Assembly: GCA_903952135.1 (NCBI GenBank) | Contig: CAJBER010000133.1 | Coordinates: 1-51,517, forward strand | DNA: 51,517 nt | Direction: 5' to 3' | DNA from: an uncultured Algoriphagus sp. | GTDB taxonomy: Bacteria > Bacteroidota > Bacteroidia > Cytophagales > Cyclobacteriaceae | Shown: positions 215-37,866 of the stretch, piece by piece | How positions within the stretch are numbered: the first letter of the stretch is position 1 | Layout: each line of letters starts with the position of its first letter | Notes under the pieces: model-generated | What the model was told of the DNA's origin: nothing | Database searches by the model: none | The model's input: the letters and a program-made list of their open reading frames with translations, nothing else | Made by a program: the position numbers and the translations under genes

Positions 215-952
215 ATGTCCGTAAAAATCAGATTAGCACGTCGTGGTCGCAAGAAACAAGCCATTTACGACGTGGTTGTAGCTGATGCAAGAGCTCCACG
301 TGATGGACGCTTCATCGAGAAACTCGGAACTTACAATCCGAACACGAACCCCGCTTCCATCAACATCAACAATGAGCGCGCTCTTACCTGGTTGTTGAAT
401 GGAGCTCAGCCTACCGATACCGTGAAAGCCATGCTTTCTTACCGCGGTGTCATGCTGAAGAAACACCTCCAAATCGGAGTGTTGAAAGGTGCTATTTCCC
501 AAGAACAAGCCGATGCTAAATTCAACGCATGGCTTTCTGAGAAAGACACTAAGATCGAAGGCAAGAAAGACCAACTTGCAGCTGCTAAGGCAGATGCACG
601 TAAGGCTGCACTTGCTGCTGAAACAGCCAAGAACCAGGCGCGTATCGACGCAATCAAAGCAAGAGAAGCTGCTGCTGTTGTCGCTGCTGAACCTGCAGTA
701 GAAGAAGTTGAAGAAGAAACTCCTGCAGCGGAAGCTCCAGTGGTAGAAGAAGAAACTCCTGCTGCTCCTGAAGTTGAAGCTACCTCCGCTGAAGAGCCGG
801 TAGTTGAAGCTGCTGAAGAAGTTGAAGCTCCAGTTGCTGAAGAAACTGCTCCTGCAGTGGAAGCTGCTGCTGAAGATACTACCTCCTCTGAGGCACCTGC
901 CGCTGACACAGCTGATGCTGGCTCAGCCGATGGTGGCGCTGCTGGAGAATAA
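215..952 (+). CDS. rpsP: 30S ribosomal protein S16 with long acidic C-terminal tail
   Basis: Small-subunit ribosomal protein S16, which binds 16S rRNA early in 30S assembly. The first ~85 residues carry the S16 fold, starting [19 protein letters not shown] and including the [14 protein letters not shown] segment. Bacterial S16 is usually 80-100 residues and Bacteroidota forms are longer, but this one is 245 residues. After a Lys/Ala-rich helix-like stretch (about 115-160) comes a low-complexity tail (about 160-245) made almost only of Ala, Glu, Val, Pro and Thr with imperfect EEETPAAPE-type repeats. The tail is in frame, uses normal codons and ends 12 bp before rimM, so it looks genuine. First gene of rpsP-rimM-trmD-rplS. 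The S16 identity is secure; the role of the tail is unknown. Confidence 0.97.
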
Positions 953-964
953 TAGATTCCTACC

Positions 965-1495
965 ATGAACAAGGACCAGTGCTTTTTGATAGGCCGGATA
1001 GCCAAAGTTCATGGACTTCGTGGTGAAGTAAATGTGGTGCTCGACGTAGATTATCCTGAGGAATACGAAGGATTAGAGCACCTCTTCCTCGATCAAAAAG
1101 GGCGCTTGATTCCCTTCTTTCTGGAACACTTTGTGATCCAGCACGGAGGCAAAGCACTCGCCAAGTTTGAGGAACTCGACCGCATCGAAGAAGTGGAACA
1201 TCTCGTAGGATCGGAAGTATATCTTCCACTCTCCGAGCTGCCCGAACTCGATGAAGATCAGTATTACTTCCACGAACTGATAGGTTTTGACGTCATCGAC
1301 GTGACGATGGGACCCATCGGACCTGTGCAGGTCGTCTACGATCTGGAAACACAGGACCTCCTCGGAGTGACCCACCAGGGCAAAGAAGTGCTGATTCCCA
1401 TACAGGACGGCATCATTACCCAAGTGGACAAGGCAGCAAAAAAAGTTTTCTGCCAGTTGCCCGAAGGCTTACTTGACATTTATCTGGAAGATTGA
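965..1495 (+). CDS. rimM: 16S rRNA processing protein RimM
   Basis: Ribosome maturation factor that binds S19 and the 30S head during late 16S rRNA processing. The 176-residue product starts with the family signature (IGRIAKVHGLRGEVNV, about residues 8-23) of the N-terminal RimM beta-barrel. The C-terminal PRC-barrel half holds YFHELIGFDV and the VLIPIQDGIITQVD region (about 137-150). Length matches the usual 165-180 residues. It lies 12 bp after rpsP and 3 bp before trmD, the standard order of this operon, so translational coupling is likely. Confidence 0.97.
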   Translation: MNKDQCFLIGRIAKVHGLRGEVNVVLDVDYPEEYEGLEHLFLDQKGRLIPFFLEHFVIQHGGKALAKFEELDRIEEVEHLVGSEVYLPLSELPELDEDQYYFHELIGFDVIDVTMGPIGPVQVVYDLETQDLLGVTHQGKEVLIPIQDGIITQVDKAAKKVFCQLPEGLLDIYLED

Positions 1496-1498
1496 GCC

Positions 1499-2188
1499 AT
1501 GCAAATTGACATCATCTCGGTCGTTCCCGGACTATTGGAAGGCCCTTTTTCACATTCCATCCTCAAACGAGCGGAAGAAAAAGACATCGCCACGGTTCGG
1601 ATACACAACCTCCGCGATTATGCCACCGGCAAACAAAAGCAAGTGGACGATTATGCATTTGGTGGGGGCGCAGGGATGGTCTTGATGATCGAACCCATTG
1701 CCCGCTGCATCGAAGCCCTTCAGCAGGAGCGTGTATATGATGAAATCATCTACATGACCCCCGATGGAGCCACCTTCGATCAGCCCATGGCCAATGCCCT
1801 CTCCCAAACGAAAAACCTCCTGATCCTCTGCGGTCATTACAAGGGGGTCGATCAGCGGGTCAGGGATGCCTTCATCACCAAAGAGATCAGCATCGGAGAT
1901 TACGTGCTGTCGGGTGGCGAGTTGGCTGCAGCGGTTGTCGCTGACGCCATCATTCGACTCATCCCAGGCGTACTCAACGACGAAACCTCTGCGTTGACGG
2001 ATTCCTTCCAAGATAACTTACTTGCCCCGCCGGTATATACTCGGCCGGCAGTATACGAAGGAAGAGAAGTTCCCGAGGTACTGCTCTCAGGGCACGAAGC
2101 CAAGATAAGTCAATGGAGATTTGAAGCGTCGGTTCGCCGAACTCGAGAAAAACGACCAGATCTTCTAGAAGATTCGGGTTGGGAGTAG
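1499..2188 (+). CDS. trmD: tRNA (guanine-N1-)-methyltransferase TrmD
   Basis: SAM-dependent enzyme that makes m1G37 in tRNAs with G36, preventing +1 frameshifting. It is a SPOUT-class trefoil-knot protein. Visible signatures are the [12 protein letters not shown] segment (about residues 50-61), [12 protein letters not shown] (about 103-114) and [12 protein letters not shown] (about 124-135), the last two forming the knot and SAM pocket. The later ALTDSFQ segment carries the family's catalytic aspartate. The 229-residue length is normal. It starts 3 bp after rimM; a 78-bp gap separates it from rplS. Confidence 0.97.
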
Positions 2189-2223
2189 GCGAGACAAGAG
2201 TATAGAAGTAGTAATTCATTTAT

Positions 2224-2237
2224 ACCGCTGCGGCGGT
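2224..2237 (+). promoter_or_regulatory. Small GC hairpin in the rplS leader
   Basis: ACCGC (2224-2228) can pair with GCGGT (2233-2237) in the 78-bp trmD-rplS gap, 29 bp before the rplS start. The gap is unusually long for this operon, and r-protein leaders are common control sites. One short stem is weak evidence, so a leader function is only a suggestion. Confidence 0.25.
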
Positions 2238-2266
2238 GCACTGCGAAAGCATAAAAACATAGAGCT

Positions 2267-2632
2267 ATGAGCGATCTAATGAAAATTGTAGAAGCGGAAT
2301 ACAGCGAGGCGAGAGCCAAATTCCCTTCCTTCAAAGCCGGTGATACCATCAACGTACACGTACGTATCAAAGAAGGTAACAAGGAGCGTATCCAGCAGTT
2401 CCAAGGAACTGTGATCCAGCGCAAAAACCCAAACTCCAATGGTGAGACCTTTACCGTGCGTAAAGTATCCAATGGTGTAGGAGTAGAGCGTATCTTCCCA
2501 ATCATCTCTCCAGCCATCGAGCAAATCGACTTGGTACGTGAGGGTAAGGTGAGAAGAGCACGTCTATTCTACTTGAGAGGACGTCAAGGTAAGGCGGCTC
2601 GTATCAAGGAAAAAATCAGACCAAGAAACTAA
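2267..2632 (+). CDS. rplS: 50S ribosomal protein L19
   Basis: Large-subunit protein L19, located at the 30S-50S interface. The 121-residue product has the L19 hallmarks [20 protein letters not shown] (about 21-40), [10 protein letters not shown], and a basic C-terminus with the [21 protein letters not shown] segment split across residues 97-117. Length is within the 110-125 range of the family. It closes the rpsP-rimM-trmD-rplS operon and is followed 15 bp later by a strong intrinsic terminator. Confidence 0.97.
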
Positions 2633-2647
2633 TTCTAGTCTATTCCC

Positions 2648-2684
2648 AAAAAAAAAGGCCCCGTATTTACGGGGCCTTTTTTTT
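2648..2684. terminator. Intrinsic terminator of the rpsP-rplS operon
   Basis: GGCCCCGT (2657-2664) pairs with ACGGGGCC (2669-2676), an 8-bp GC-rich stem with a 4-nt loop. It is flanked by nine A on the left and eight T on the right, so it could work in both directions. The first palindromic repeat starts immediately after its T-run. Confidence 0.95.
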
Positions 2685-2859
2685 AACCTTTGCTGTTTTC
2701 AAAACAGCGAAGGTTTTAGACTAAAACAACTAAACTAGACCTTCGAGGTCTGGGAGACCTCAAAGGTTGCGCCCAACCTTTGCTGTTTTTTTTAACAGCG
2801 AAGGTTTTGTATTCCATTTCAAGCATTTAAACCTTCGAGGTCTAAAAGACCTCAAAGGT
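2685..2859. repeat. Block of four palindromic repeats (family 1), two-hairpin module duplicated
   Basis: Four inverted repeats lie between the rplS terminator and the gltX promoter: A 2685-2715, B 2739-2767, C 2775-2806, D 2831-2859. A and C share outer arms AACCTTTG/CGAAGGTT with an inner CTG/CAG stem and a T-rich loop. B and D have arms ACCTTCGAGGTCT/AGACCTCAAAGGT. A+B and C+D form the same module in tandem, about 90 bp per unit. In each palindrome the arms differ at the same position (CCTTTG versus CCTTCG), which gives every copy a direction: A and C point one way, B and D the other. The same family recurs at 32901-33100. The organisation resembles REP/BIME elements of other bacteria. Confidence 0.9.
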
Positions 2860-2873
2860 GCCCGACAAATTCC

Positions 2874-2881
2874 TATCTTTG
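2874..2881 (+). promoter_or_regulatory. Putative -7 box of gltX
   Basis: TATCTTTG fits the Bacteroidota TAnnTTTG consensus and lies 24 bp before the gltX ATG, just after the last palindromic repeat. No clear -33 element is visible, because that position falls inside repeat D. Confidence 0.55.
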
Positions 2882-2905
2882 TGGGCTTAGTAGCCACAAA
2901 AATCT

Positions 2906-4447
2906 ATGACCAAAGAAGTTCGCGTACGATTTGCACCTTCCCCAACGGGAGCACTCCATATCGGAGGGCTGCGCACCGCCCTCTACAATTACCTTTTTGC
3001 CCGAAAAATGGGAGGAAAATTTCTCCTGCGCATCGAAGATACCGACCAAACGCGCTTTGTGCCTGGCGCCGAAGAATACATCCAAGAATCCCTAGACTGG
3101 ATGGGGATCTCCCCAGACGAAAGTCCCTGGAAGCCAGGAAGCGTAGGCCCCTACCGCCAGTCCGAGCGCAAGGCGAGCTACATGAACTATGCCCTGGACT
3201 TAATCAAAAAAGGGCACGCCTACTACGCCTTCGATACCGCCGAAGAATTGGAAGCCATGCGCGAGCGCCTCACCGCTGCCCGCGTAGTGCAGCCTCAGTA
3301 CAACAGCATTACCCGAACCCAAATGAAAAACTCCCTCACCCTCTCTGCAGAAGAAGTGAAGGAACGATTGGCTTCGGGAGATCCCTACGTCATTCGCGCC
3401 AAACTTCCCCTCAAGGAGGAGGTGCGCTTTCATGACTTAATCCGCGGCTGGGTGCTTGTGCATTCCAGTACCCTAGACGATAAGGTCTTGATGAAATCAG
3501 ACGGCATGCCTACCTACCACCTGGCCAACATTGTGGATGACCACCTGATGGGCATCACCCACGTGATTCGTGGAGAAGAATGGCTTCCCTCAGCTCCCCT
3601 GCACGTATTGCTGTACCGATTTTTTGGTTGGGAGGATACCATGCCCCAGTTTGCCCACCTGCCCCTGCTCCTCAAGCCGGATGGCAATGGCAAGCTCTCC
3701 AAGCGCGATGGTGACAAGTTGGGCTTTCCCGTATTTCCACTCAACTGGACCGATCCTTTTACAGGGGAAAAATCCAGCGGCTTCCGCGAAAACGGCTACC
3801 TGCCGGATGCGCTCCTCAACTTCCTTGCCTTCCTAGGCTGGAACCCAGGGGATGAGCGCGAGATTTTCTCCTTGGAAGAACTCGTAGAAGCCTTCTCCAT
3901 CGAGCGCATTGGCAAGTCGGGAACCAAATTTGACATCGCCAAAGCGAAGTGGTTTAACGAACATTACCTCCGTAGCAGCGCGCAGGAGGACTTGATCGCC
4001 TACCTTCAGCAGGATGCGCATGCAGCAGGCACCACCCTTTCCCAAGAAAAAGCAGGAGCTATCGTCTCCCTTCTTCGAGATCGGGTCACCTTCCCTGGGG
4101 ACTTCTGGAGAGACAGTCAGTTTATCAGCCATGCACCTACTCAATTTGATACAGAGGTAGCGGCCAAAAAATGGAATGCCGATGCAGCCACCTTGCTTCA
4201 AGGCTATGCAAACGCACTGGAATCTGGGGTAGCCGCTCCTTTTGATGGAACGGCAGCCAAGGCACTCTTGGAAAGTACGGCCGAAGCCACGGGCATCAAG
4301 CTGGGCAAAGTCATGCAGGCAGTCCGTCTGGCGGTCACTGGACTAGGTGCCGGCCCTGACCTAATGGAAGTTTTTGCGATTTTAGGTCCTCAAGAGGTGG
4401 CCAAAAGAATTCGATTTGCGTTAGATACGCTAGCAATCGTAGACTGA
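2906..4447 (+). CDS. gltX: Glutamyl-tRNA synthetase
   Basis: Class I aminoacyl-tRNA synthetase charging tRNA-Glu in the cytoplasm. The 513-residue product opens with RFAPSPTGALHIGGLRTAL, the HIGH-type motif being HIGG at residues 18-21. The KMSKS-type loop is KLSKR at residues 263-267. RIEDTDQTR and the GEEWLPSAP segment are also typical. The helical anticodon-binding half fills the C-terminus. Length and motifs fit bacterial GluRS of the Bacteroidota. It is separated from the ribosomal operon by the family-1 repeat block and its own promoter. The next small gene starts 1 bp after its stop. Confidence 0.97.
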   Translation: MTKEVRVRFAPSPTGALHIGGLRTALYNYLFARKMGGKFLLRIEDTDQTRFVPGAEEYIQESLDWMGISPDESPWKPGSVGPYRQSERKASYMNYALDLIKKGHAYYAFDTAEELEAMRERLTAARVVQPQYNSITRTQMKNSLTLSAEEVKERLASGDPYVIRAKLPLKEEVRFHDLIRGWVLVHSSTLDDKVLMKSDGMPTYHLANIVDDHLMGITHVIRGEEWLPSAPLHVLLYRFFGWEDTMPQFAHLPLLLKPDGNGKLSKRDGDKLGFPVFPLNWTDPFTGEKSSGFRENGYLPDALLNFLAFLGWNPGDEREIFSLEELVEAFSIERIGKSGTKFDIAKAKWFNEHYLRSSAQEDLIAYLQQDAHAAGTTLSQEKAGAIVSLLRDRVTFPGDFWRDSQFISHAPTQFDTEVAAKKWNADAATLLQGYANALESGVAAPFDGTAAKALLESTAEATGIKLGKVMQAVRLAVTGLGAGPDLMEVFAILGPQEVAKRIRFALDTLAIVD

Positions 4448-4448
4448 G

Positions 4449-4634
4449 ATGACCAAAAAGAAGAAAAAAGAAGAAGACCCCCGTGTACACGAAGAATTGA
4501 AGGGATTCAAAATGGAAATCAACTCCTTTGGAGAAATCTCTTCCAGCCTTCCTATCGAGGCAATCAATGACTTCCTCAATAAAAATGTGGAAGATAAAAA
4601 ACTCAAAGAGCGAGAGGATCAAACACAGGATTAA
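4449..4634 (+). CDS. Small charged protein downstream of gltX
   Basis: A 61-residue, highly charged protein with a Lys/Glu-rich start (MTKKKKKEEDPRVHEELKGF), a central segment EINSFGEISSSLPIEAINDFLN and a charged end. It has no signal peptide, membrane segment or cysteine. It begins one base after the gltX stop and ends in the foot of the shared terminator, so it is almost certainly co-transcribed and translationally coupled with gltX. I do not recognise a functional family; I expect relatives next to gltX in other Cytophagales, which I cannot check here. Its coding status rests on position, codon-like composition and clean boundaries. Confidence 0.75.
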   Translation: MTKKKKKEEDPRVHEELKGFKMEINSFGEISSSLPIEAINDFLNKNVEDKKLKEREDQTQD

Positions 4635-31555: not shown

Positions 31556-31639
31556 AATCTAAAAGTAGTTTTTGTAGCTGAATTCCTTGCCACTTGAAGG
31601 TAATTTTCCCTGGGGACTATTTTCATTTAAGCGTACAAG

Positions 31640-32887
31640 TTAGGCATACCTTCCCACCTCAAATCCCTTGATTTCCATGGAGGTGTCTTTCTGTTGATGC
31701 AACTCTGCTAGGATTTTGCCTGTGGCAGGAGCTAGCGAAATTCCCATCATGGAATGCCCACTTCCTACCAGCACGTTGGAATAGTTGGGTGCAAATCCGA
31801 TGTAGGGAAGGCCATCAGGAGAGCAGGGACGTAGACCTTTCCAGATCTGTTCCTCCTCAGGGAAGGAGGCCTCAAAGTCAGGATAGTATCGGTTGATGGC
31901 TTCAAAAATGCCCTTCACCCGATTTTTATTGATGGACTGATTGGTACCTGCAATTTCCATGGTGCCACCAAATCGGATTGTATCTCCGTAGGGGCTTACT
32001 GCTACTTTTTGTTCGGTAAGGATGGTGGCCTGTAGAATTTCGGGCTTATTTTTTTGAATGAAGGAGTAGCCTTTTCCACCCATCATTGGAAGAGAGAATT
32101 GGAGCATGCGGGCGAGTTCGCCAGACCAAGATCCACCACAAAGCAGAATTTTTTCACAGTCGATTTTGCCTTTGTCCGTAAGGACCGCTTGTACGGTGCT
32201 GCCGGACTTTTCGAAGCCGAGCACTTGGGTTTCGGTAAGGAATTTTACTCCTTTCTTTTCCAGGTAGCTCTTCAAAAAGCTGTACAAGGCTCCGGGATCT
32301 AGGTGGGCATCTCCTGGAAATAGAACGGCACCACGCGCCTTCAGGTGTAGGTAGGGTTCTATCCTTTTGAGGTCTTCGGGGGTAAGAATCTCTGCATCAA
32401 GGCCATATTTTCGTGCTAAATGGGCAAACTCCACCTCCTCCTTTTCCATGGATTCGGTTTGATAGGCCATCATGAGGCCCTTTTCTACCAGGGCTATGGA
32501 AGATTCAGGATGCTCCTGACGAAACTCTTGGTAGAGCGCCTTGCTCAGTAGGCTGATGTTTTTGAGGTAAGGGATGGCCTTATTGACCTGGCTGGGTGTG
32601 GCTGCCTTGAAGAAGAGGAGGCACCATTGGACTAGTTTAAAATCCAGTCGAGGGTGGATGTAGAAAGGGCTCTTGGAGGAAAACATCCAAGAAATGCCTT
32701 TGCTAATCATGCCAGGCGCAGCCAGAGGGATGATGTGGCTCGGAACGATCATGCCAGCATTGCCTGTGGAACAGTTGTCCTTCAAGTCCGTCCGGTCGAT
32801 TACGGTTACCTCGACACCTTCCTTTTGAAGGAAGTAGGCAGTAAATAAGCCGACGATTCCACCGCCGATCACAAGGGTTGGTTTCAT
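31640..32887 (-). CDS. FAD-dependent D-amino-acid oxidoreductase, probable D-hydroxyproline dehydrogenase/oxidase
   Basis: A 415-residue DadA/DAO-superfamily flavoprotein. The FAD Rossmann motif GGGIVG is at residues 8-13 in TLVIGGGIVGLFTAYFLQ. CSTGNAGMIVPSHIIPL is the typical second region, and the C-terminal FAD contact is LRPCSPDGLPYIGFAP with VGSGHSMMGISLAPATGK. DadA would deaminate D-alanine; here the position beside hydroxyproline epimerase, DapA-like deaminase and KGSA dehydrogenase argues for oxidation of cis-4-hydroxy-D-proline to 1-pyrroline-4-hydroxy-2-carboxylate. It has no signal peptide and presumably feeds electrons to the respiratory chain or oxygen. The family-1 repeat array ends 13 bp before its start. 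Confidence 0.85.
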   Translation of the reverse strand: MKPTLVIGGGIVGLFTAYFLQKEGVEVTVIDRTDLKDNCSTGNAGMIVPSHIIPLAAPGMISKGISWMFSSKSPFYIHPRLDFKLVQWCLLFFKAATPSQVNKAIPYLKNISLLSKALYQEFRQEHPESSIALVEKGLMMAYQTESMEKEEVEFAHLARKYGLDAEILTPEDLKRIEPYLHLKARGAVLFPGDAHLDPGALYSFLKSYLEKKGVKFLTETQVLGFEKSGSTVQAVLTDKGKIDCEKILLCGGSWSGELARMLQFSLPMMGGKGYSFIQKNKPEILQATILTEQKVAVSPYGDTIRFGGTMEIAGTNQSINKNRVKGIFEAINRYYPDFEASFPEEEQIWKGLRPCSPDGLPYIGFAPNYSNVLVGSGHSMMGISLAPATGKILAELHQQKDTSMEIKGFEVGRYA

Positions 32888-32900
32888 ATAAGATGCTTTT

Positions 32901-33100
32901 AACCTTTGAGGTCTTTCAGACCTCGAAGGTTTTGGTTTATCCTTTGAGGTTTTGGATTATCCTTTGAGGTTTAAAAAACCTCGAAGGATTAGAATTTGGA
33001 TTAAATCTTTGAGGTTTTGATTTATCCTTTGCGGTCTTTCAGACCTCGAAGGATTAGATTTTGATTTAAACCTTCGAGGTCAAAAAAGACCTCAAAGGTT
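32901..33100. repeat. Array of family-1 palindromic repeats between oxidase and epimerase genes
   Basis: Four full palindromes: E 32901-32931 (AACCTTTGAGGTC/GACCTCGAAGGTT), F 32960-32988, G 33025-33053, H 33069-33100. Two solitary half-sites (CCTTTGAGGTTTT at 32941-32953; CTTTGAGGTTTTG near 33006-33018) lie between them. E, F and G carry the CCTTTG arm first; H carries CCTTCG first and so is reversed. H ends on the first base of the epimerase stop codon (33100-33102 on the minus strand). The same family occupies 2685-2859. Solitary half-sites and reversed copies suggest amplification by slippage or transposition. Confidence 0.92.
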
Positions 33101-34104
33101 TAGATCACTTGGAATCCATGTACGTATGGATCGTCCTCGTCTAGGATGATCGTATTGTAGCCATAGACTTTTGCCCAGCCTTCGATGCTAGGGACGATGG
33201 CGGGTTTACCACCTATCGTGGTTTCTTCCTCGATGCGTCCGATAAACTTGGAGCCGATAAAGCTTTCGTGGATAAACTCGTCTCCGGGCTTCAACCAGCC
33301 TTTGGCATACCATTGCGCCATTCGTGCCGAAGTGCCCGTTCCGCATGGGGAGCGGTCAATGGCTTTGTCTCCGTAGAACACGGCATTGCGGGCAGTGCTG
33401 CTCGGATCGAGGGTTTTTCCGGTCCAAAGAACATGAGAAAGGCCCCTAATTCGCTTATGCTCGGGATGCACAAAGTCGTAGCGCTCGTTCATTTTTAGAC
33501 GAAGATTTCGAGCCATGGAGATGAGCTGCTCCGCTTTGAAGTGCTCAATTCCTGGGAAATTTTCCTGCGGATCGACAATGCAGTAGAAGTTGCCTCCATA
33601 AGCTACATCTACTTTGAGAGTTCCCAATTCCTCGATTTCGATGTCTAGGTTTTCTGCTGCGAGGTAACTTTTTACGTTCGTCAGTTTGACTGATTTTACC
33701 TTATTTCCCTCTTGGCGGTACTCCACCAAGACCAAGCCTGCCGGAGCCTCCATACGAAGAAAACCGGGTGTTTTGGGGTGAATCAAGCCTTCTTCGATCG
33801 CAATGGTGATCGTGCCGATGGTGCCGTGTCCACACATGGGAAGGCAACCCGAAGTTTCGATGAAAAGGACCGCAAAGTCATTCTCCGGATTGTGCGGGGG
33901 AAATAACATGGAGCCCGACATCATGTCATGGCCCCGTGGTTCAAACATGAGGCCTGTTCGAATCCAATCCAGGTTATCTAGAAAATATTGGCGTTTTTCT
34001 AGCATGTTGTCCCCTTTTAGAAAGGGTACTCCGCCTGAAACTACCCGTACGGGATTGCCACAGGTGTGGGCGTCGATGCAAGAAAAGGTATGGCGTGAAG
34101 GCAT
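33100..34104 (-). CDS. 4-hydroxyproline 2-epimerase (proline racemase superfamily)
   Basis: A 334-residue cofactor-independent enzyme. Both catalytic cysteines are present: Cys91 in LPMCGHGTIGT and Cys254 in RSPCGTGTSARMA. A Thr in the second site would instead mark the trans-3-hydroxyproline dehydratases. The N-terminus (IDAHTCGNPVRVV) and GYGGNFYCIVD-like segment (VAYGGNFYCIVD, about 167-178) fit. With its neighbours it should convert trans-4-hydroxy-L-proline to cis-4-hydroxy-D-proline in the cytoplasm. Proline racemase is the alternative but less consistent with context. Its stop codon abuts the family-1 array; its start follows a family-2 element by 37 bp. Confidence 0.9.
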   Translation of the reverse strand: MPSRHTFSCIDAHTCGNPVRVVSGGVPFLKGDNMLEKRQYFLDNLDWIRTGLMFEPRGHDMMSGSMLFPPHNPENDFAVLFIETSGCLPMCGHGTIGTITIAIEEGLIHPKTPGFLRMEAPAGLVLVEYRQEGNKVKSVKLTNVKSYLAAENLDIEIEELGTLKVDVAYGGNFYCIVDPQENFPGIEHFKAEQLISMARNLRLKMNERYDFVHPEHKRIRGLSHVLWTGKTLDPSSTARNAVFYGDKAIDRSPCGTGTSARMAQWYAKGWLKPGDEFIHESFIGSKFIGRIEEETTIGGKPAIVPSIEGWAKVYGYNTIILDEDDPYVHGFQVI

Positions 34105-34141
34105 TTTTTTGTGGAGTAGAATAGTTAAATGAAATGCAGTA

Positions 34142-34320
34142 GAAATAAGATGGAAATAAGGTAGAAATACCCGCCGCGGCGGGCCGCTTCGTGAAATAAG
34201 TTAGGGAAATACAATGGAAATAGACTTCGCTTCGTGAAATAGGTTGAAATAGAAATTGGTGTTTATATTTCACCGAGCCGGTAGGCTCGGTTTATTTCTA
34301 CTTTATTTCTACTCTATTTC
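34142..34320. repeat. Family-2 repeat element with inverted terminal 11-bp arrays (copy 1)
   Basis: The left end has GAAATA at 34142, 34153 and 34164, exactly 11 bp apart. The right end has the inverse TATTTC at 34293, 34304 and 34315, again 11 bp apart. Between them lie further GAAATA copies (34193, 34206, 34217, 34236, 34246), a perfect palindrome CCCGCCGCGGCGGG (34170-34183), two copies of CGCTTCGTGAAATA, and a hairpin CCGAGCC-GGTA-GGCTCGG (34273-34290). The right end overlaps the last codons and stop of the aldehyde dehydrogenase gene, whose final ATG-AAA-TAG contains the terminal repeat. A second copy is at 35803-35948. Confidence 0.88.
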
Positions 34321-35762
34321 ATAGTTACAATCCCATTCACTTGCCTCCAAATCCCGAGTGGATTTTGGTCTTGTAGGGCATCGGGCAAAAGAGCAGAGGG
34401 CATGTCTTGAAAGGCGATGGGACGCGCAAAACGCTTGATGGCATAAGCACCCACCGAGGTACTATTGGGAGCAGTGGTAGCCGGGAACGGCCCACCATGC
34501 TGCATGGCATTGCCTACTTCCACACCCGTAGGGGCACCCTTAAACAAGAGGCGTCCACATTTTTCTTCAAGCAAGTTGATGAGGAAAAGTTGAGATTGCA
34601 GTTCCTCAGCCTCTGCCCATACCGTAATGGTCAATTGGCCATGAAGCTGCTTGGCTACTTCCGACAATTCCGCCACATCTTGGTAAACGACCATCAGCGC
34701 AAATGAACCGAATACTTCTTTTTGAAACTGTTTATCCTTCAACCAATCGGCAACTTGGATTTCTGCCAAGGCGGCGCTGCCATTTAGGAGGTGTTTGGGA
34801 TCTGCCACTTTTATCCAGCGCAGTTCTTCACGGGATTCCAAGTATTGAATGGAATCGTAGTAGGCTTGCGCGATTCCAGGATGGAGCATGGGAGCTGCTG
34901 TGATGCCTTTTAATTCTTCGATCAAAAGAGCTTCGAAGGTCTTGGCCTGACTAGCAGGAACAAAGATCAAACCCGGGTTAGTGCAAAATTGCCCTACACC
35001 CAAGGTGAGCGATGCAATAAATGCCTTTGCTAGCGACTCGGTTTCTTTGGAAAGTTTGTGAGGGAAGCAGAAGATTGGATTGACGGAGCCCATTTCAGCA
35101 TACACCGGGATGGGTTCCTCCCGTTGGTTAGCCAATTGGAATAGTGCCATTCCTCCAGCATGAGAGCCTGTAAAAGCTACTGCTTTGGCAAGGGGGTGCT
35201 GTACCAAGGCTTGTCCTTCAGCAATGCCACCTTCTACATGGGTGAATAACCCAGTAGGAAGCCCAGATGCGTTCAATGCTTCTTGGATACACGCTGCTAC
35301 TTTCTTGGAGGTTTCGGGATGCGCAGGGTGTGCCTTGTAGATCACGGAGCAACCTGCCGCCAAGGCGGAAATGGTATCCCCTCCTGCTGTGGAAAATGCC
35401 AACGGGAAATTACTCGCCCCAAAGACCACTACAGGACCTAGTGGAGTTAAAAATCGGCGAATATCTGCTCTAGGAAGCGGGCTTCGATCCGGAAGAGCGG
35501 GATCGATAGTGGCTTCTACCCAAGAACCTTCCTTGACCAAATTGGCAAACAGGCGAATTTGCCCCGTAGTCCTGCCTAGTTCACCATTGATCCGCCCTTC
35601 TGGGAGATTGGATTCGCGTACTGCGAGCGGTACGATTTCAGCCCGTTGGGATTCCAGGATGTCGGCAAGTTTATCCAAAAAAGCCCCCTTTTCTTTGCCG
35701 GAAAGGTTTTTGTAGAAGAGGAATGCTTCTTGGGCTACCTGAAAGATGGAATTGGTATTCAT
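34314..35762 (-). CDS. 2-oxoglutarate semialdehyde dehydrogenase (2,5-dioxovalerate dehydrogenase)
   Basis: A 482-residue NAD(P)-dependent aldehyde dehydrogenase. Catalytic Cys260 lies in GVGQFCTNPG, general-base Glu223 in YAEMGSVNP, and Asn118 in GASNFPLAF. The AEMGSVNPIF and GQFCTNPG sequences, plus the AMQHGGPFPATT end region, are those of the type III KGSA dehydrogenases in hydroxyproline and sugar-acid catabolism. It is somewhat shorter than the ~520-residue relatives. In context it oxidises 2-oxoglutarate semialdehyde to 2-oxoglutarate, the entry into the TCA cycle. Family-2 repeats flank it on both sides; the downstream copy overlaps its stop codon. Confidence 0.9.
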   Translation of the reverse strand: MNTNSIFQVAQEAFLFYKNLSGKEKGAFLDKLADILESQRAEIVPLAVRESNLPEGRINGELGRTTGQIRLFANLVKEGSWVEATIDPALPDRSPLPRADIRRFLTPLGPVVVFGASNFPLAFSTAGGDTISALAAGCSVIYKAHPAHPETSKKVAACIQEALNASGLPTGLFTHVEGGIAEGQALVQHPLAKAVAFTGSHAGGMALFQLANQREEPIPVYAEMGSVNPIFCFPHKLSKETESLAKAFIASLTLGVGQFCTNPGLIFVPASQAKTFEALLIEELKGITAAPMLHPGIAQAYYDSIQYLESREELRWIKVADPKHLLNGSAALAEIQVADWLKDKQFQKEVFGSFALMVVYQDVAELSEVAKQLHGQLTITVWAEAEELQSQLFLINLLEEKCGRLLFKGAPTGVEVGNAMQHGGPFPATTAPNSTSVGAYAIKRFARPIAFQDMPSALLPDALQDQNPLGIWRQVNGIVTMK

Positions 35763-35802
35763 GGTGTATTGGATTTAGGGGAATTACTAGGAAAACAAGG
35801 TA

Positions 35803-35948
35803 GAAATACGGTGGAGATAGAGTTGAAATAGCCCTAGCCGAAAGGCTAGGGGAAATAGGGAATTCAAATTCGAATTTCCATTGTATTTCCCTAGATTATT
35901 TCACGGAGCGAAGCGCAGTGTATTTCCACTGAATTTCCACACTATTTC
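35803..35948. repeat. Family-2 repeat element with inverted terminal 11-bp arrays (copy 2)
   Basis: Same architecture as the copy at 34142-34320. GAAATA, GAGATA and GAAATA at 35803, 35814 and 35825 (11-bp period) sit at one end. TATTTC, AATTTC and TATTTC at 35921, 35932 and 35943 (11-bp period, inverted) sit at the other. The core has a hairpin CCCTAGCC-GAAA-GGCTAGGG (35832-35851) with a GNRA-type loop. TATTTCACGGAGCGAAGCG (35897-35915) is the inverse of the CGCTTCG...GTGAAATA motif of copy 1. It ends 1 bp from the stop codon of the DapA-like gene and 40 bp before the aldehyde dehydrogenase start. Confidence 0.88.
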
Positions 35949-35949
35949 T

Positions 35950-36840
35950 TTATAGTGCCGGCCTATTCTTAATTCCGTCCGTGATTATTTTTTCAATTCG
36001 TGCGCGTTCTTCACCAATTAGGGTCAAGCGCGGGGCGCGAACATGTTCGGAACCAATGCCGCAGTGCTGCTCGGCAAGCTTGATGTACTGTACCAACTTG
36101 GGATGAATGTCCAGTTCCAAAAGCGGTAAAAACCAGCGGTAAATTTTGCGTGCTTCTTCGATTTTTCCTTCCTGAACCAAGTTGTAAATCACCACGGTCT
36201 CCTTCGGGAATGCACACACCAAGCCTGCTACCCATCCTACAGCGCCCATGAGCAACTCTTCGAGGGCTAGGGTGTCTACACCGCAAAGAATCTGGAAGCG
36301 GTCACCAAATCGGTTGTACATACGGGTGACATTGGAGATGTCACGGGTAGATTCTTTGATGGCTTGGATATTTGGGCAGTCTGCGAGTTCAGCAAACATG
36401 TCCAGAGTGACCAAAGTCTTGTAGTCTACCGGATTGTTGTAGATCATCATGGGTAGTTTGGTGGAATTAGCCACCGCTTTGAAGTAGGCGACCACCTCAC
36501 GAGCATCTGCCCCATAGCGCATGGGAGGCAGGATCATCAATCCAGAAGCACCGAGTTCCTCCGCCTTTTTGGCCCAGAATAGTGCGTCTTGTGTGGCACC
36601 TTCTGCGATGTTCAGGATTACGGGCACACGTCCGTTGACGTAGTTGACAGTTTCTCGGGTTAGCGTGATTTTTTCTTCTTGGGAGAGCACAGAGCTCTCA
36701 CCGAGTGTGCCGCCTAGAATAATTCCATGCACGCCAGCCGCGAGTTGTGAGTCTAGGTTTTTGAAAAACAGGTTCATGTCTAGACTGCCGTCTGCATGAA
36801 ATTTAGTGGTTACTGCGGGGAATACGCCTTTCCAGTTCAT
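35950..36840 (-). CDS. DapA-superfamily deaminase, probable 1-pyrroline-4-hydroxy-2-carboxylate deaminase
   Basis: A 296-residue class I aldolase-fold protein. The Schiff-base lysine is Lys162 in NIQAIKESTRD, the catalytic Tyr134 lies in MMIYNNP, and GGTLGESSVLS (about 43-53) replaces the GTTGE carboxylate-binding motif of true dihydrodipicolinate synthase. This pattern and the neighbours suggest the deaminating step 1-pyrroline-4-hydroxy-2-carboxylate to 2-oxoglutarate semialdehyde plus ammonia, rather than lysine synthesis. It is the first gene of the minus-strand series and lies 165 bp from the divergent AraC-type regulator. Another lyase of the family cannot be excluded from sequence alone. 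Confidence 0.86.
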   Translation of the reverse strand: MNWKGVFPAVTTKFHADGSLDMNLFFKNLDSQLAAGVHGIILGGTLGESSVLSQEEKITLTRETVNYVNGRVPVILNIAEGATQDALFWAKKAEELGASGLMILPPMRYGADAREVVAYFKAVANSTKLPMMIYNNPVDYKTLVTLDMFAELADCPNIQAIKESTRDISNVTRMYNRFGDRFQILCGVDTLALEELLMGAVGWVAGLVCAFPKETVVIYNLVQEGKIEEARKIYRWFLPLLELDIHPKLVQYIKLAEQHCGIGSEHVRAPRLTLIGEERARIEKIITDGIKNRPAL

Positions 36841-37005: not shown

Positions 37006-37866
37006 ATGGAGAAAATCATTTCCTTTCAGATTCCAAAGTCACAGCGGGAATTTGTTCGCTACCAGGAGGATCGTGGGCCTTATTTTTACGACAAACTCCA
37101 CCAGCATCCCCAATGTCAGCTGACGGTTATTCTAGAGGGAAGCGGGCAGTTTCTCAGTGGGGATTATGTGGGTAGATTCCAGGGGGGAGATGTATTTTTT
37201 TTAGGGGAAAATGCTCCCCATGTGTTTCGGAGTGACGGGGTCTATTTTGAGGAAAAGTCTACCTTAACTGTGGCTGGAAATACCGTTTTTTTTGATTTTG
37301 AGGCATTAAAAAGTGGATTGCTGAACTTGGATGAGTTGCAGGCATTGAACCGATTCCGAGACTTTGCAGGATTGTGTTTCCAAGTTCAAGGTGTACCGGC
37401 CCAGCAGATTCAAGAGGTGCTCCATTCCTTCAAAAGTAAAGAAGGGCTTCAACGGTTTCAAGCGGCCCTTGAGCTCCTAGATCTACTCGAACAGGCTGGA
37501 GAGGAACTGCAGCAACTCAATTCGGGGGGAAGGCTATTGGGGCTTTCCGAAAAAGATGGGAGCCGGATGGATCGGGTGATGCAGTATGTATTGGCCCATC
37601 GCTTTCAAAAAATCACTTTGGGGGAGGTGGCGGCCGAGGCCAATTTGACCAAGGAGGCATTTTGCAGATTTTTCAAGTTGCGTACTCGAAAAACCTTCAC
37701 GGATTACCTCCTGCATTTGCGCATCAATGAGGCCCAGCAATTGCTGCAGGAGACAGAATTGGGGATTTCAGAAATTGCCTATCGGGTAGGTTTTGAAAAT
37801 TTATCCTATTTCAACCGAAGTTTTAAACGCATTTCGGGCAAAACCCCGCGAGCAGTAAGAGGTTGA
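37006..37866 (+). CDS. AraC-family transcriptional regulator
   Basis: A 286-residue regulator with an N-terminal cupin sensor (HQHPQCQLTVILEGSGQFL and GGDVFFLGENAPHVF, about 28-70). The C-terminal double HTH (about 185-284) includes ITLGEVAAEANLTKEAFCRFF and the AraC signature ISEIAYRVGFENLSYFNRSFK. It ends SGKTPRAVRG, as in many family members. It is divergent from the hydroxyproline deaminase gene, so it is the likely local regulator, sensing hydroxyproline or an intermediate. The 165-bp shared region would hold its operator; I cannot pick a site. Confidence 0.92.
   Translation: MEKIISFQIPKSQREFVRYQEDRGPYFYDKLHQHPQCQLTVILEGSGQFLSGDYVGRFQGGDVFFLGENAPHVFRSDGVYFEEKSTLTVAGNTVFFDFEALKSGLLNLDELQALNRFRDFAGLCFQVQGVPAQQIQEVLHSFKSKEGLQRFQAALELLDLLEQAGEELQQLNSGGRLLGLSEKDGSRMDRVMQYVLAHRFQKITLGEVAAEANLTKEAFCRFFKLRTRKTFTDYLLHLRINEAQQLLQETELGISEIAYRVGFENLSYFNRSFKRISGKTPRAVRG

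Follow-up and report, generated by a model that had tools for sequence, protein, structure and literature searches.

A hydroxyproline operon of an uncultured Algoriphagus is a hotspot of short intercistronic repeats with turnover

The STRR sequences of cyanobacteria are heptanucleotide arrays located in intergenic DNA. REP elements are reported to lie near the point where the upstream ORF terminates, and the ends of a REP can provide the TAG stop of that ORF (PMC3733652). For REPs of Escherichia coli, an effect is reported when no more than 15 nt separates them from a stop codon (Liang 2015, as cited in PMC12306157). Intergenic arrays of the heptanucleotide TAACTGA are present in Beggiatoaceae and some Bacteroidetes (PMC4679880), and the BrickBuilt MITE of Porphyromonas gingivalis, which includes a 23-nt minisatellite, is positioned 49-591 nt from genes (PMC4596501). 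It has long been asked if selection for a function in the mRNA accounts for REP-like repeats at the ends of genes or if they are just tolerated. No description of the repeat families presented here was found in the open-licence literature, a scope within which absence is not proven.

The window, the whole stretch of 51,517 nucleotides analysed, harbors a hydroxyproline-degrading operon on its minus strand. The genes were called with a simple codon-usage script, so that the stops are reliable and the starts may be off. The operon includes a DapA-like aldolase/dehydratase gene (35950..36840; an ORF with dapA as best NCBIfam match, under the curated cut-off), an aldehyde dehydrogenase-like gene (34314..35762; an ORF with NCBIfam matches under the curated cut-offs), a 4-hydroxyproline epimerase gene (33100..34104; NF010578, 586.5 bits against a cut-off of 376) and, as the next cistron, an FAD-dependent D-amino acid dehydrogenase-like gene (31640..32887; an ORF with its best match under the curated cut-off). 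An AraC-type regulator (37006..37866, plus strand; ORF with a profile match) is divergent from the operon. The DapA-like gene adjoins the epimerase gene in relatives.

The sequence-only reading had proposed that at three consecutive junctions a repeat begins at or inside the stop codon of the upstream gene, and this description holds, with offsets of 1 bp, inside the stop, and 1 bp. The stop of the DapA-like gene (35950-35952) lies opposite family-2 copy 2 (35803..35948, minus strand), which ends 1 bp away and comprises GC-rich hairpins flanked by inverted arrays of an 11-bp unit, GAAATANNNTN, with degenerate units running on to approximately 35781. Family-2 copy 1 (34131..34320, minus strand), also composed of inverted 11-bp arrays with inner hairpins, extends 7 bp into the end of the aldehyde dehydrogenase ORF and so includes its TAG stop. 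The final codons of this ORF are ATG AAA TAG, and the stop (34314-34316) is inside the array 34294-34320 (GAAATAGAGTAGAAATAAAGTAGAAAT, minus strand). The epimerase-FAD junction is occupied by a family-1 cluster (32903..33098, minus strand) of half sites and four complete palindromes (33071-33098, 33026-33052, 32961-32987 and 32903-32929), with 1 bp between the end of the first and the epimerase stop (33100-33102). Measured from the exact repeat motif, the DNA left before the next start is 40 bp at the DapA-aldehyde dehydrogenase, 26 bp at the aldehyde dehydrogenase-epimerase and 15 bp at the epimerase-FAD junction. Of the earlier values of 40, 37 and 13 bp, the first thus stands and the other two require correction; the second becomes 26 bp because an extra unit at 34131, GAAATGCAGTA, belongs to the array. 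No such repeat was detected by eye or by a motif cluster scan in the fourth gap, from the FAD gene to gldD (31556-31639), and the DapA-AraC divergent gap of the window carries none.

Both families recur in the genome of origin. A pattern of three 11-bp units gives 44 matches there, compared with 0 for the reversed control, and the family-1 palindrome pattern gives 17 places, compared with 0 for its control. All 17 places share the same asymmetric T/G position. Among the matches listed in a class-wide palindrome search, 16 of 16 within the genus are asymmetric and 5 of 5 outside it are symmetric. A second family-1 cluster of the window (2687..2858, plus strand) comprises alternating inverted palindromes in the interval from the rplS terminator to a promoter-like motif of gltX, 54 bp from a stop. 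By a hairpin pattern that misses degenerate copies, seven genomes have copies in the rplS-gltX gap; alternation is strict in four (the genome of origin, G000, and G008, G005 and G006), extends up to the final copy in G027 and G002, and is not displayed by G011. The family 1 copies at this site hence show inverted, alternating doublets of the BIME/REPIN type.

Comparison of 32 same-genus genomes, the genome of origin included, revealed repeats in 64 of 90 junctions of the operon, and in 42 of 64 outside the clade of the window, the junctions being phylogenetically related and the counts therefore not independent. The 90 junctions are those that remain after dropping any that were shorter than 20 bp, longer than 420 bp or incomplete, namely G022 at the aldehyde dehydrogenase-epimerase junction, G004, G006 and G022 at the epimerase-FAD junction, and G029 and G032, with a contig that lacks the DapA gene. 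Unused genomes were G001 and G005 (partial epimerase), G012 and G027 (none) and G045 (another family of the order, with only the epimerase found). The repeat family varies by lineage between 11-bp GAAATA arrays, the CCTTTGAGG palindrome, and period-7 or period-8 arrays, with at least 7, at least 11 and at least 6 state changes on the tree at the three junctions. Across 88 junctions, enrichment is displayed at lags 7 (n=19), 8 (n=9), 11 (n=13) and 14 (n=13), compared with 2 at lag 5, 0 at the remaining lags from 5 to 15, and an expectation of 0.0-0.2. The palindrome is confined to the epimerase-FAD junction (10/29, and 0/61 at the others) and the 11-bp arrays to the junctions upstream of it (19/61, and 0/29 at epimerase-FAD); the clade of the window supplies 8 of these 10 palindrome junctions and 14 of the 19 junctions with 11-bp arrays. 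In a separate set of named genomes, picked for holding the family-2 pattern, the frequency of that pattern is biased. Turnover extends to very close species. The aldehyde dehydrogenase-epimerase gap, 209 bp in the window, is 46 bp without a hairpin in the nearest relative, G013, and gaps of 46-47 bp without a hairpin are found in G013 and G006. Purines are richer in the first than in the last 30 nt of 49 of 52 array junctions; the same polarity is present in 19 of 23 junctions with no called repeat and in 1 of 10 palindrome junctions. The proposal that relatives would conserve the position of the repeats while changing their identity is thus borne out for this operon across the genus.

The hydroxyproline operon is therefore a repeat hotspot with turnover. 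Among same-strand gaps in general, repeats are present in 8 of 69 in G033 and in 8 of 50 in the genome of origin, three of the latter being from this operon. The gltX neighbourhood of genomes outside the clade bears repeats in 6 of 25 cases, and the DapA-AraC divergent gap in 2 of 25. In this operon the repeats also fit closely to stop codons: of the 64 repeat-bearing junctions, 40 have at most 5 bp between the stop and the start of the repeat. Array ends were placed with a low score limit, reachable by chance stretches, and under stricter limits the 24 of 35 period-7/8 arrays within 5 bp of a stop become 20/35 or 15/27. These arrays also end a median of 5-6 bp before the next start, which fits the filling of a gap rather than the targeting of a stop.

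Placement elsewhere was assessed on 30 loci per search, in one case 30 loci from 59 matches. Among the matches listed, the 11-bp family has 29 stop-facing edges, of which only 3 come as close as 5 bp to the stop, and two of these 3 belong to the window. Divergent gaps contain 11 of the 36 copies placed. The tally omits seven elements that sit where a locus or contig ends. Of the 25 TTACGA array places listed, 13 have a 5' edge facing a stop and 11 have one facing a start; the distance is 12 bp or less in 8 and 7 of these, respectively, the start calls being unsure. Genome-wide targeting of stop codons was rejected on the basis of these TTACGA edges near starts, the loose 11-bp copies and the family-1 cluster in a terminator-promoter interval. 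Nor do the tabulated distances support a preference for stop codons as such.

In the reading that we prefer, and to which we give an even chance, the repeats are filler of dispensable junction DNA in a permissive operon and form strong hairpins of putative function. Short repeat families would spread or expand in dispensable junction DNA, and little sequence would be required from a stop codon up to the short leader that precedes the following gene, so that a repeat could extend until it touches or even provides the stop codon and occupies the gap. The operon appears unusually permissive, with at least four kinds of repeats across lineages and both arms always of one kind. Once transcribed, the repeats are predicted to form very stable stems that start from the final base of the stop or directly after it, pairing at one junction running almost without a break for approximately 31 base pairs. 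Stems of this sort would be expected to stop 3'-5' exonucleases or to be processed by RNase III, dividing the polycistronic mRNA, an effect that may be a tolerated by-product free of base-by-base selection. The data show the anatomy of the junctions, their turnover, the hotspot and the in silico folds, and we infer permissiveness, spreading and any effect on mRNA. Tolerance by itself leaves unexplained the roughly 3-6x enrichment of the operon relative to other same-strand gaps of 40-350 bp. The small range of families at each junction and the frequent folding of the epimerase-FAD junction also count against it, and no mobility was seen, with no transposase link at the Y1 loci scanned.

That enrichment over background would be expected if intercistronic stem-loops were selected, guarding the cistron before them against 3'-5' decay or serving as RNase III sites to set cistron-specific mRNA levels, with selection acting on any hairpin at the stop and families freely swapped. 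This account also accommodates a conserved place with a changing family, and we consider it a realistic possibility, if a somewhat doubtful one. Including the stop codon, the sense-strand folds of the epimerase-FAD, aldehyde dehydrogenase-epimerase and DapA-aldehyde dehydrogenase gaps reach -83.5 (z -12.3), -52.8 (z -5.8) and -47.7 kcal/mol (z -4.6), a stability that 0 of 200 shuffles matched for any of the three, and the cluster 32903..33098 is predicted to form one long hairpin with its stem starting at the final base of the epimerase stop. Across the genus, z is -2 or lower in 53 of 90 junctions and, irrespective of repeat family, in 23 of 29 species at epimerase-FAD. Folds with z of -3 or lower are common in same-strand (12/50 in the genome of origin; 18/69 in G033) and convergent gaps (10/15; 9/14) and rare in divergent gaps (1/22; 1/23), although by eye most are terminators: the 12 same-strand cases, from gaps of 40-350 bp in approximately 279 kb of the genome of origin, consist of 4 family-1 or family-2 gaps of the window and 8 ordinary U-tailed terminators. 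Against selection, z of -2 or lower is absent from 18 of 31 aldehyde dehydrogenase-epimerase gaps, G013 and G006 dispense with a hairpin there, and the sense strand folds more stably than the antisense in only 29 of 90 junctions (14 of 25 in the period-7 class, the only one that is even). Co-evolution of the long hairpins was rejected because native arms pair no better than arms swapped within a family: for 16 family-2 elements of the genome of origin, permuted arms equalled the native stability in 4913 of 5000 permutations, and for six single-family sets of 4-9 operon junctions each they did so in 789-4499 of 5000. A mixed-family junction set did favor the native arms (37 of 5000 permutations as stable), because both arms are of one family. 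Selection for stem-loops at 3' ends, as first suggested, is thus not supported, the results on co-variation and strand being negative or contrary to it. A variant that we hold to be unlikely is that the intercistronic spacer of Cyclobacteriaceae is a maintained slot, rebuilt from the stop to near the next start as inverted 7-, 8- or 11-bp arrays or palindromes; the unit family would be swapped between species while the boundaries and the purine-to-pyrimidine polarity of arrays are kept, the cell needing a hairpin and not a sequence.

The remaining alternatives assign the repeats to other processes. By analogy with what is reported for E. coli REPs, a stem that close to the stop, at 15 nt or less, might slow termination and lower expression of the upstream gene; 52 of 64 repeats do begin within 15 bp, but the first repeat unit and the first stable pair are not at one and the same distance, and at other genomic sites the copies keep less tightly to stops, so this effect on translation seems very improbable. 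Insertion directed to gene ends by a transposase is a slim prospect. Y1 transposase (RAYT/IS200-like) genes are present in 34 of 36 genus genomes and the palindrome clusters are inverted doublets with fixed outer ends; yet many copies lie away from gene ends, and among 30 Y1 loci in the matches listed a full family-1 palindrome occurs at 1, a half site at 3, a family-2 pair at 1 and a different REP-like hairpin at 13, with neither family at the three loci of the genome of origin (0/3). A transposase-linked REP was therefore rejected, as the listed loci carry mostly other REPs or none, and family 2, viewed as a putative MITE, has inverted arrays but no transposase link at the Y1 loci scanned. 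A grading of expression from cistron to cistron by partial intrinsic terminators would fit the stable hairpin after each stop, and a scan of 32800-36100 returned 8 candidates against 4.0 expected. However, 6 of the 8 are antisense and the two sense ones are in the FAD gene (32850-32868); no sense-strand candidate lies inside the repeats, the intrinsic terminator reading was rejected, and partial termination is scarcely credible. A known structured RNA family was also rejected, as Rfam returned four matches, all to microRNA models far under the gathering threshold. A phage or plasmid origin was rejected for family-2 copy 1, the sole query, which has no blastn match in either collection.

Across 32 related genomes, a single conserved operon thus provides repeated replacement of repeats at the same three places, and very close species differ by presence or absence (G000 and G013). 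These natural replacements make the choice between selected and tolerated repeats directly testable through comparison of expression.

Among described systems, family 1 resembles the REP, BIME and REPIN elements of gammaproteobacteria in its imperfect palindrome, conserved asymmetric pair, inverted clusters and mostly extragenic location, with some copies near stops. It differs in that the 8 family-1 hairpins of the window have, judging their flanks by eye, no GTAG or CGTC foot, that no transposase link was found at the Y1 loci scanned, and that copy number is low (17 by the strict pattern in the genome of origin). The REP analogy drawn by the sequence-only reading is hence apt for the layout of the palindrome family, through its inverted doublets, and is not supported for a selected stem-loop function. 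The E. coli REPs with an effect near stop codons share the distance to the stop; they belong to unrelated families, and function here is putative. With the heptanucleotide arrays, the period-7 arrays have in common their period, their intergenic position adjoining gene boundaries and, in some cases, overlap with an ORF end, whereas the units here are degenerate, comprise several words, often form inverted arms, and at one junction present different words in different species. BrickBuilt is likewise intergenic, from Bacteroidota and built of tandem units with inverted ends, but it has another unit length and is not tied to stop codons.

The hydroxyproline operon of the window lies on the minus strand of a draft genome (2.84 Mb, 249 contigs, 90% complete, with the window as contig 133). 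It consists of a DapA-like gene (35950-36840), an aldehyde dehydrogenase gene (AldDH; 34314-35762) and a FAD-dependent D-amino acid dehydrogenase-like gene (31640-32887), all assigned by open reading frame and profile search, together with 4-hydroxyproline epimerase (Epi; 33100-34104; NCBIfam NF010578, over cut-off). An AraC-type regulator (37006-37866) is divergent from the operon, and gldD lies downstream. The DapA-AldDH, AldDH-Epi and Epi-FAD junctions measure 187, 209 and 212 bp. The sequence-only reading placed repeats at the stop codons of three successive genes, which is borne out in all three junctions: the DapA-like stop is 1 bp from the end of family-2 copy 2, the last 7 bp of the AldDH frame, stop included, fall inside family-2 copy 1, and the epimerase stop is 1 bp from the end of the family-1 cluster. 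Of the distances to the next start given there (40, 37 and 13 bp), the first stands and the other two become 26 and 15 bp by exact motif.

Both repeat families have copy numbers far above chance in the genome of the window, with 17 places for the palindrome of family 1 and 44 matches for the 11-bp pattern of family 2, against 0 for each reversed control. Family 1 has the form CCTTTGAGGTC...GACCTCGAAGG, in which T opposite G is kept in 17/17 own-genome places. A class-wide search finds the family-1 pattern in 7/295 genomes; among the matches listed, all 16 places in the genus are asymmetric and all 5 outside it perfectly symmetric. A family-2 element encloses small GC-rich hairpins between GAAATANNNTN units, to the left, and the complement of these units, to the right. 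All 18 own-genome clusters with both orientations open with plus and close with minus units, and 4 further clusters hold plus units only.

The comparison with relatives that had been proposed comes out positive: the position of repeats at this operon is kept across the genus and the repeat family changes between relatives. Of the 58 genomes searched for the epimerase, 36 have it; taken together with the window, the operon regions from 31 relatives in the genus yield 90 junctions of usable length (DapA-AldDH 30, AldDH-Epi 31, Epi-FAD 29). Repeats occur in 17/30, 22/31 and 25/29 of these, respectively: 8/9, 6/9 and 8/8 within the nine-genome clade of the window and 9/21, 16/22 and 17/21 outside it. 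Family 2 occupies 10, 9 and 0 junctions, family 1 only Epi-FAD (10, with 0 at the other two), period-7 arrays 4, 6 and 15, and period-8 arrays 3, 7 and 0. A family-blind count over 88 junctions recovers lags of 7 (19), 8 (9), 11 (13), 14 (13) and 5 (2), with the remaining lags from 5 to 15 at 0 (expected 0.0-0.2). Unit words vary by eye, AGAACCA, GTACCAA, GAAGACC and TTTACGA among them. On a 30-genome tree the state changes at least 7, 11 and 6 times at the three junctions, a count that does not separate gain from loss. The 11-bp pattern is present in 25/36 genomes of the genus (control, one match in total) and TTACGA arrays in 13/36, 0 of these within the clade. TTACGA heptad arrays also cluster, several recurring over some hundreds to some thousands of bases, in two comparison genomes (G033:C1:990050-990454; G014:C34:17892-23011).

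Eleven named genomes, picked for carrying the family-2 pattern, were examined by eye. Short AldDH-Epi gaps hold GAAATA arrays in 6/8 and other arrays in Cognataquiflexum; the five short Epi-FAD gaps hold family 1 in A. faecimaris and period-7-like arrays in 4. The operon genes lie farther apart in Indibacter, Belliella and Arthrospiribacter. The A. marincola AldDH-Epi gap (locus L362) has the family-2 layout with AAGATA/TATCTT replacing GAAATA/TATTTC, the same design with a different unit. Two metagenome-assembled genomes labelled Spirosoma fluviale (L258, L261) share epimerase coordinates with in-genus G011 and G007, so the label looks wrong.

The pattern is real and well placed, and the operon is a hotspot with turnover. 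With one classifier for all sets, repeats occur in 64/90 operon junctions (1.3 by shuffling), or 42/64 without the clade, compared with 8/69 gaps between same-strand genes of G033 (340 kb sampled; 2.0 by shuffling) and 8/50 in the genome of the window (1.0 by shuffling; 3 are this operon and 1 is rplS-gltX). Repeats occupy 6/25 gaps around gltX in non-clade genomes, and 2/25 divergent DapA-AraC gaps carry them. The Fisher test of non-clade junctions against G033 (p about 1e-10) overstates the evidence because the species are related.

In 40/64 repeat-bearing operon junctions the repeat begins no more than 5 bp from the stop, and in 52/64 no more than 15 bp (clade 12/22 and 20/22; non-clade 28/42 and 32/42). 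Stricter array limits lower the period-7/8 share within 5 bp from 24/35 to 20/35 or 15/27; the median distance of these arrays to the next start is 5-6 bp. Distances tabulated for family 2, TTACGA and family 1 show that stop targeting is not general to the families. Among the matches listed, family-2 elements could be placed 36 times in eight genomes, in same-strand (21), divergent (11) and convergent (4) gaps; stop-facing edges are within 5 bp in 3/29 and 20 bp in 13/29, start-facing edges in 5/43 and 10/43, and 15/21 same-strand copies are nearer the stop. At 25 TTACGA places, again among the matches listed, the 5' edge comes to 12 bp or less from a stop in 8/13 and from a start in 7/11, start calls being unsure. 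Given this looser placement elsewhere, the stop-abutting position belongs to this operon more than to the repeat families.

The best-supported mechanism, held with roughly even confidence, is that dispensable junction DNA is filled in a permissive operon. The main rival, which is less likely, is that intercistronic hairpins are under selection. At Epi-FAD in the window, the family-1 cluster opens after the stop with a U.G copy and closes with a C.A copy on the sense strand, so its outer halves match; a single long stem is predicted for the entire cluster, starting on the final base of the stop codon (z -12.3, -83.5 kcal/mol). For the family-2 gaps the values are -52.8 kcal/mol with z -5.8 (copy 1) and -47.7 kcal/mol with z -4.6 (copy 2). 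Across the genus, sense-strand folds at z<=-2 number 17/30, 13/31 and 23/29, so only Epi-FAD is mostly structured. Against the rival, arms do not co-pair specifically: own pairing of 16 family-2 elements is no better than swapped (4913/5000 permutations as stable), and the same holds for native arms within each of six junction sets drawn from single families (789-4499/5000). The antisense strand folds better, the sense strand being stabler in only 29/90 junctions (p 0.0016 the other way; family 2 5/19, family 1 2/10, period-8 1/10, period-7 14/25, none 7/26). In G013, the closest relative, the AldDH-Epi gap is 46 bp without a hairpin, versus 209 bp in the window; its other two junctions fold strongly. 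The arm-swap, strand and G013 results speak against stem-loop selection of a base-by-base kind; selection for any hairpin is a less likely alternative to filling.

Family-2, period-7 and period-8 junctions have a common polarity, with purines enriched behind the stop and pyrimidines ahead of the start (49/52), although these array families are mutually unrelated. It occurs in 55/91 background same-strand gaps and 19/23 junctions without a called repeat, and is reversed in family 1 (1/10).

A search of open-licence papers found no description of these repeats. Other REP-like hairpins, with cores such as CCGTAGG and CGATGGG, often lie beside the Y1-transposase genes of the genus (13/30 loci among the matches listed, by a rough pattern; L140, L141, L144, L148, L158 and L165), and the two probably form true REP/transposase pairs. 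Family 1 resembles REP/REPIN elements in layout, REPINs being described as inverted doublets in a passage of PMC3116915. It differs from REP elements in lacking a foot tag, by eye on the eight hairpins of the window, and a transposase link, with a full family-1 palindrome at 1 of the 30 Y1 loci listed. In nine genomes, seven from the clade plus G027 and G005 (neither on the tree), family 1 occupies by eye the stretch at rplS-gltX that runs from a U-tailed terminator to a promoter-like TATCTTTG motif. It was not seen by eye in the stretch upstream of gltX in the other 21 genomes, in most of which the upstream gene is different or distant; G024 and G035 have a short rplS-gltX gap with terminator and promoter-like motif and lack family 1 by eye. 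Each of the nine carries one to several doublets, and the number differs between close species (window 2687-2858; L211-L219), varying like a BIME array that expands and contracts.
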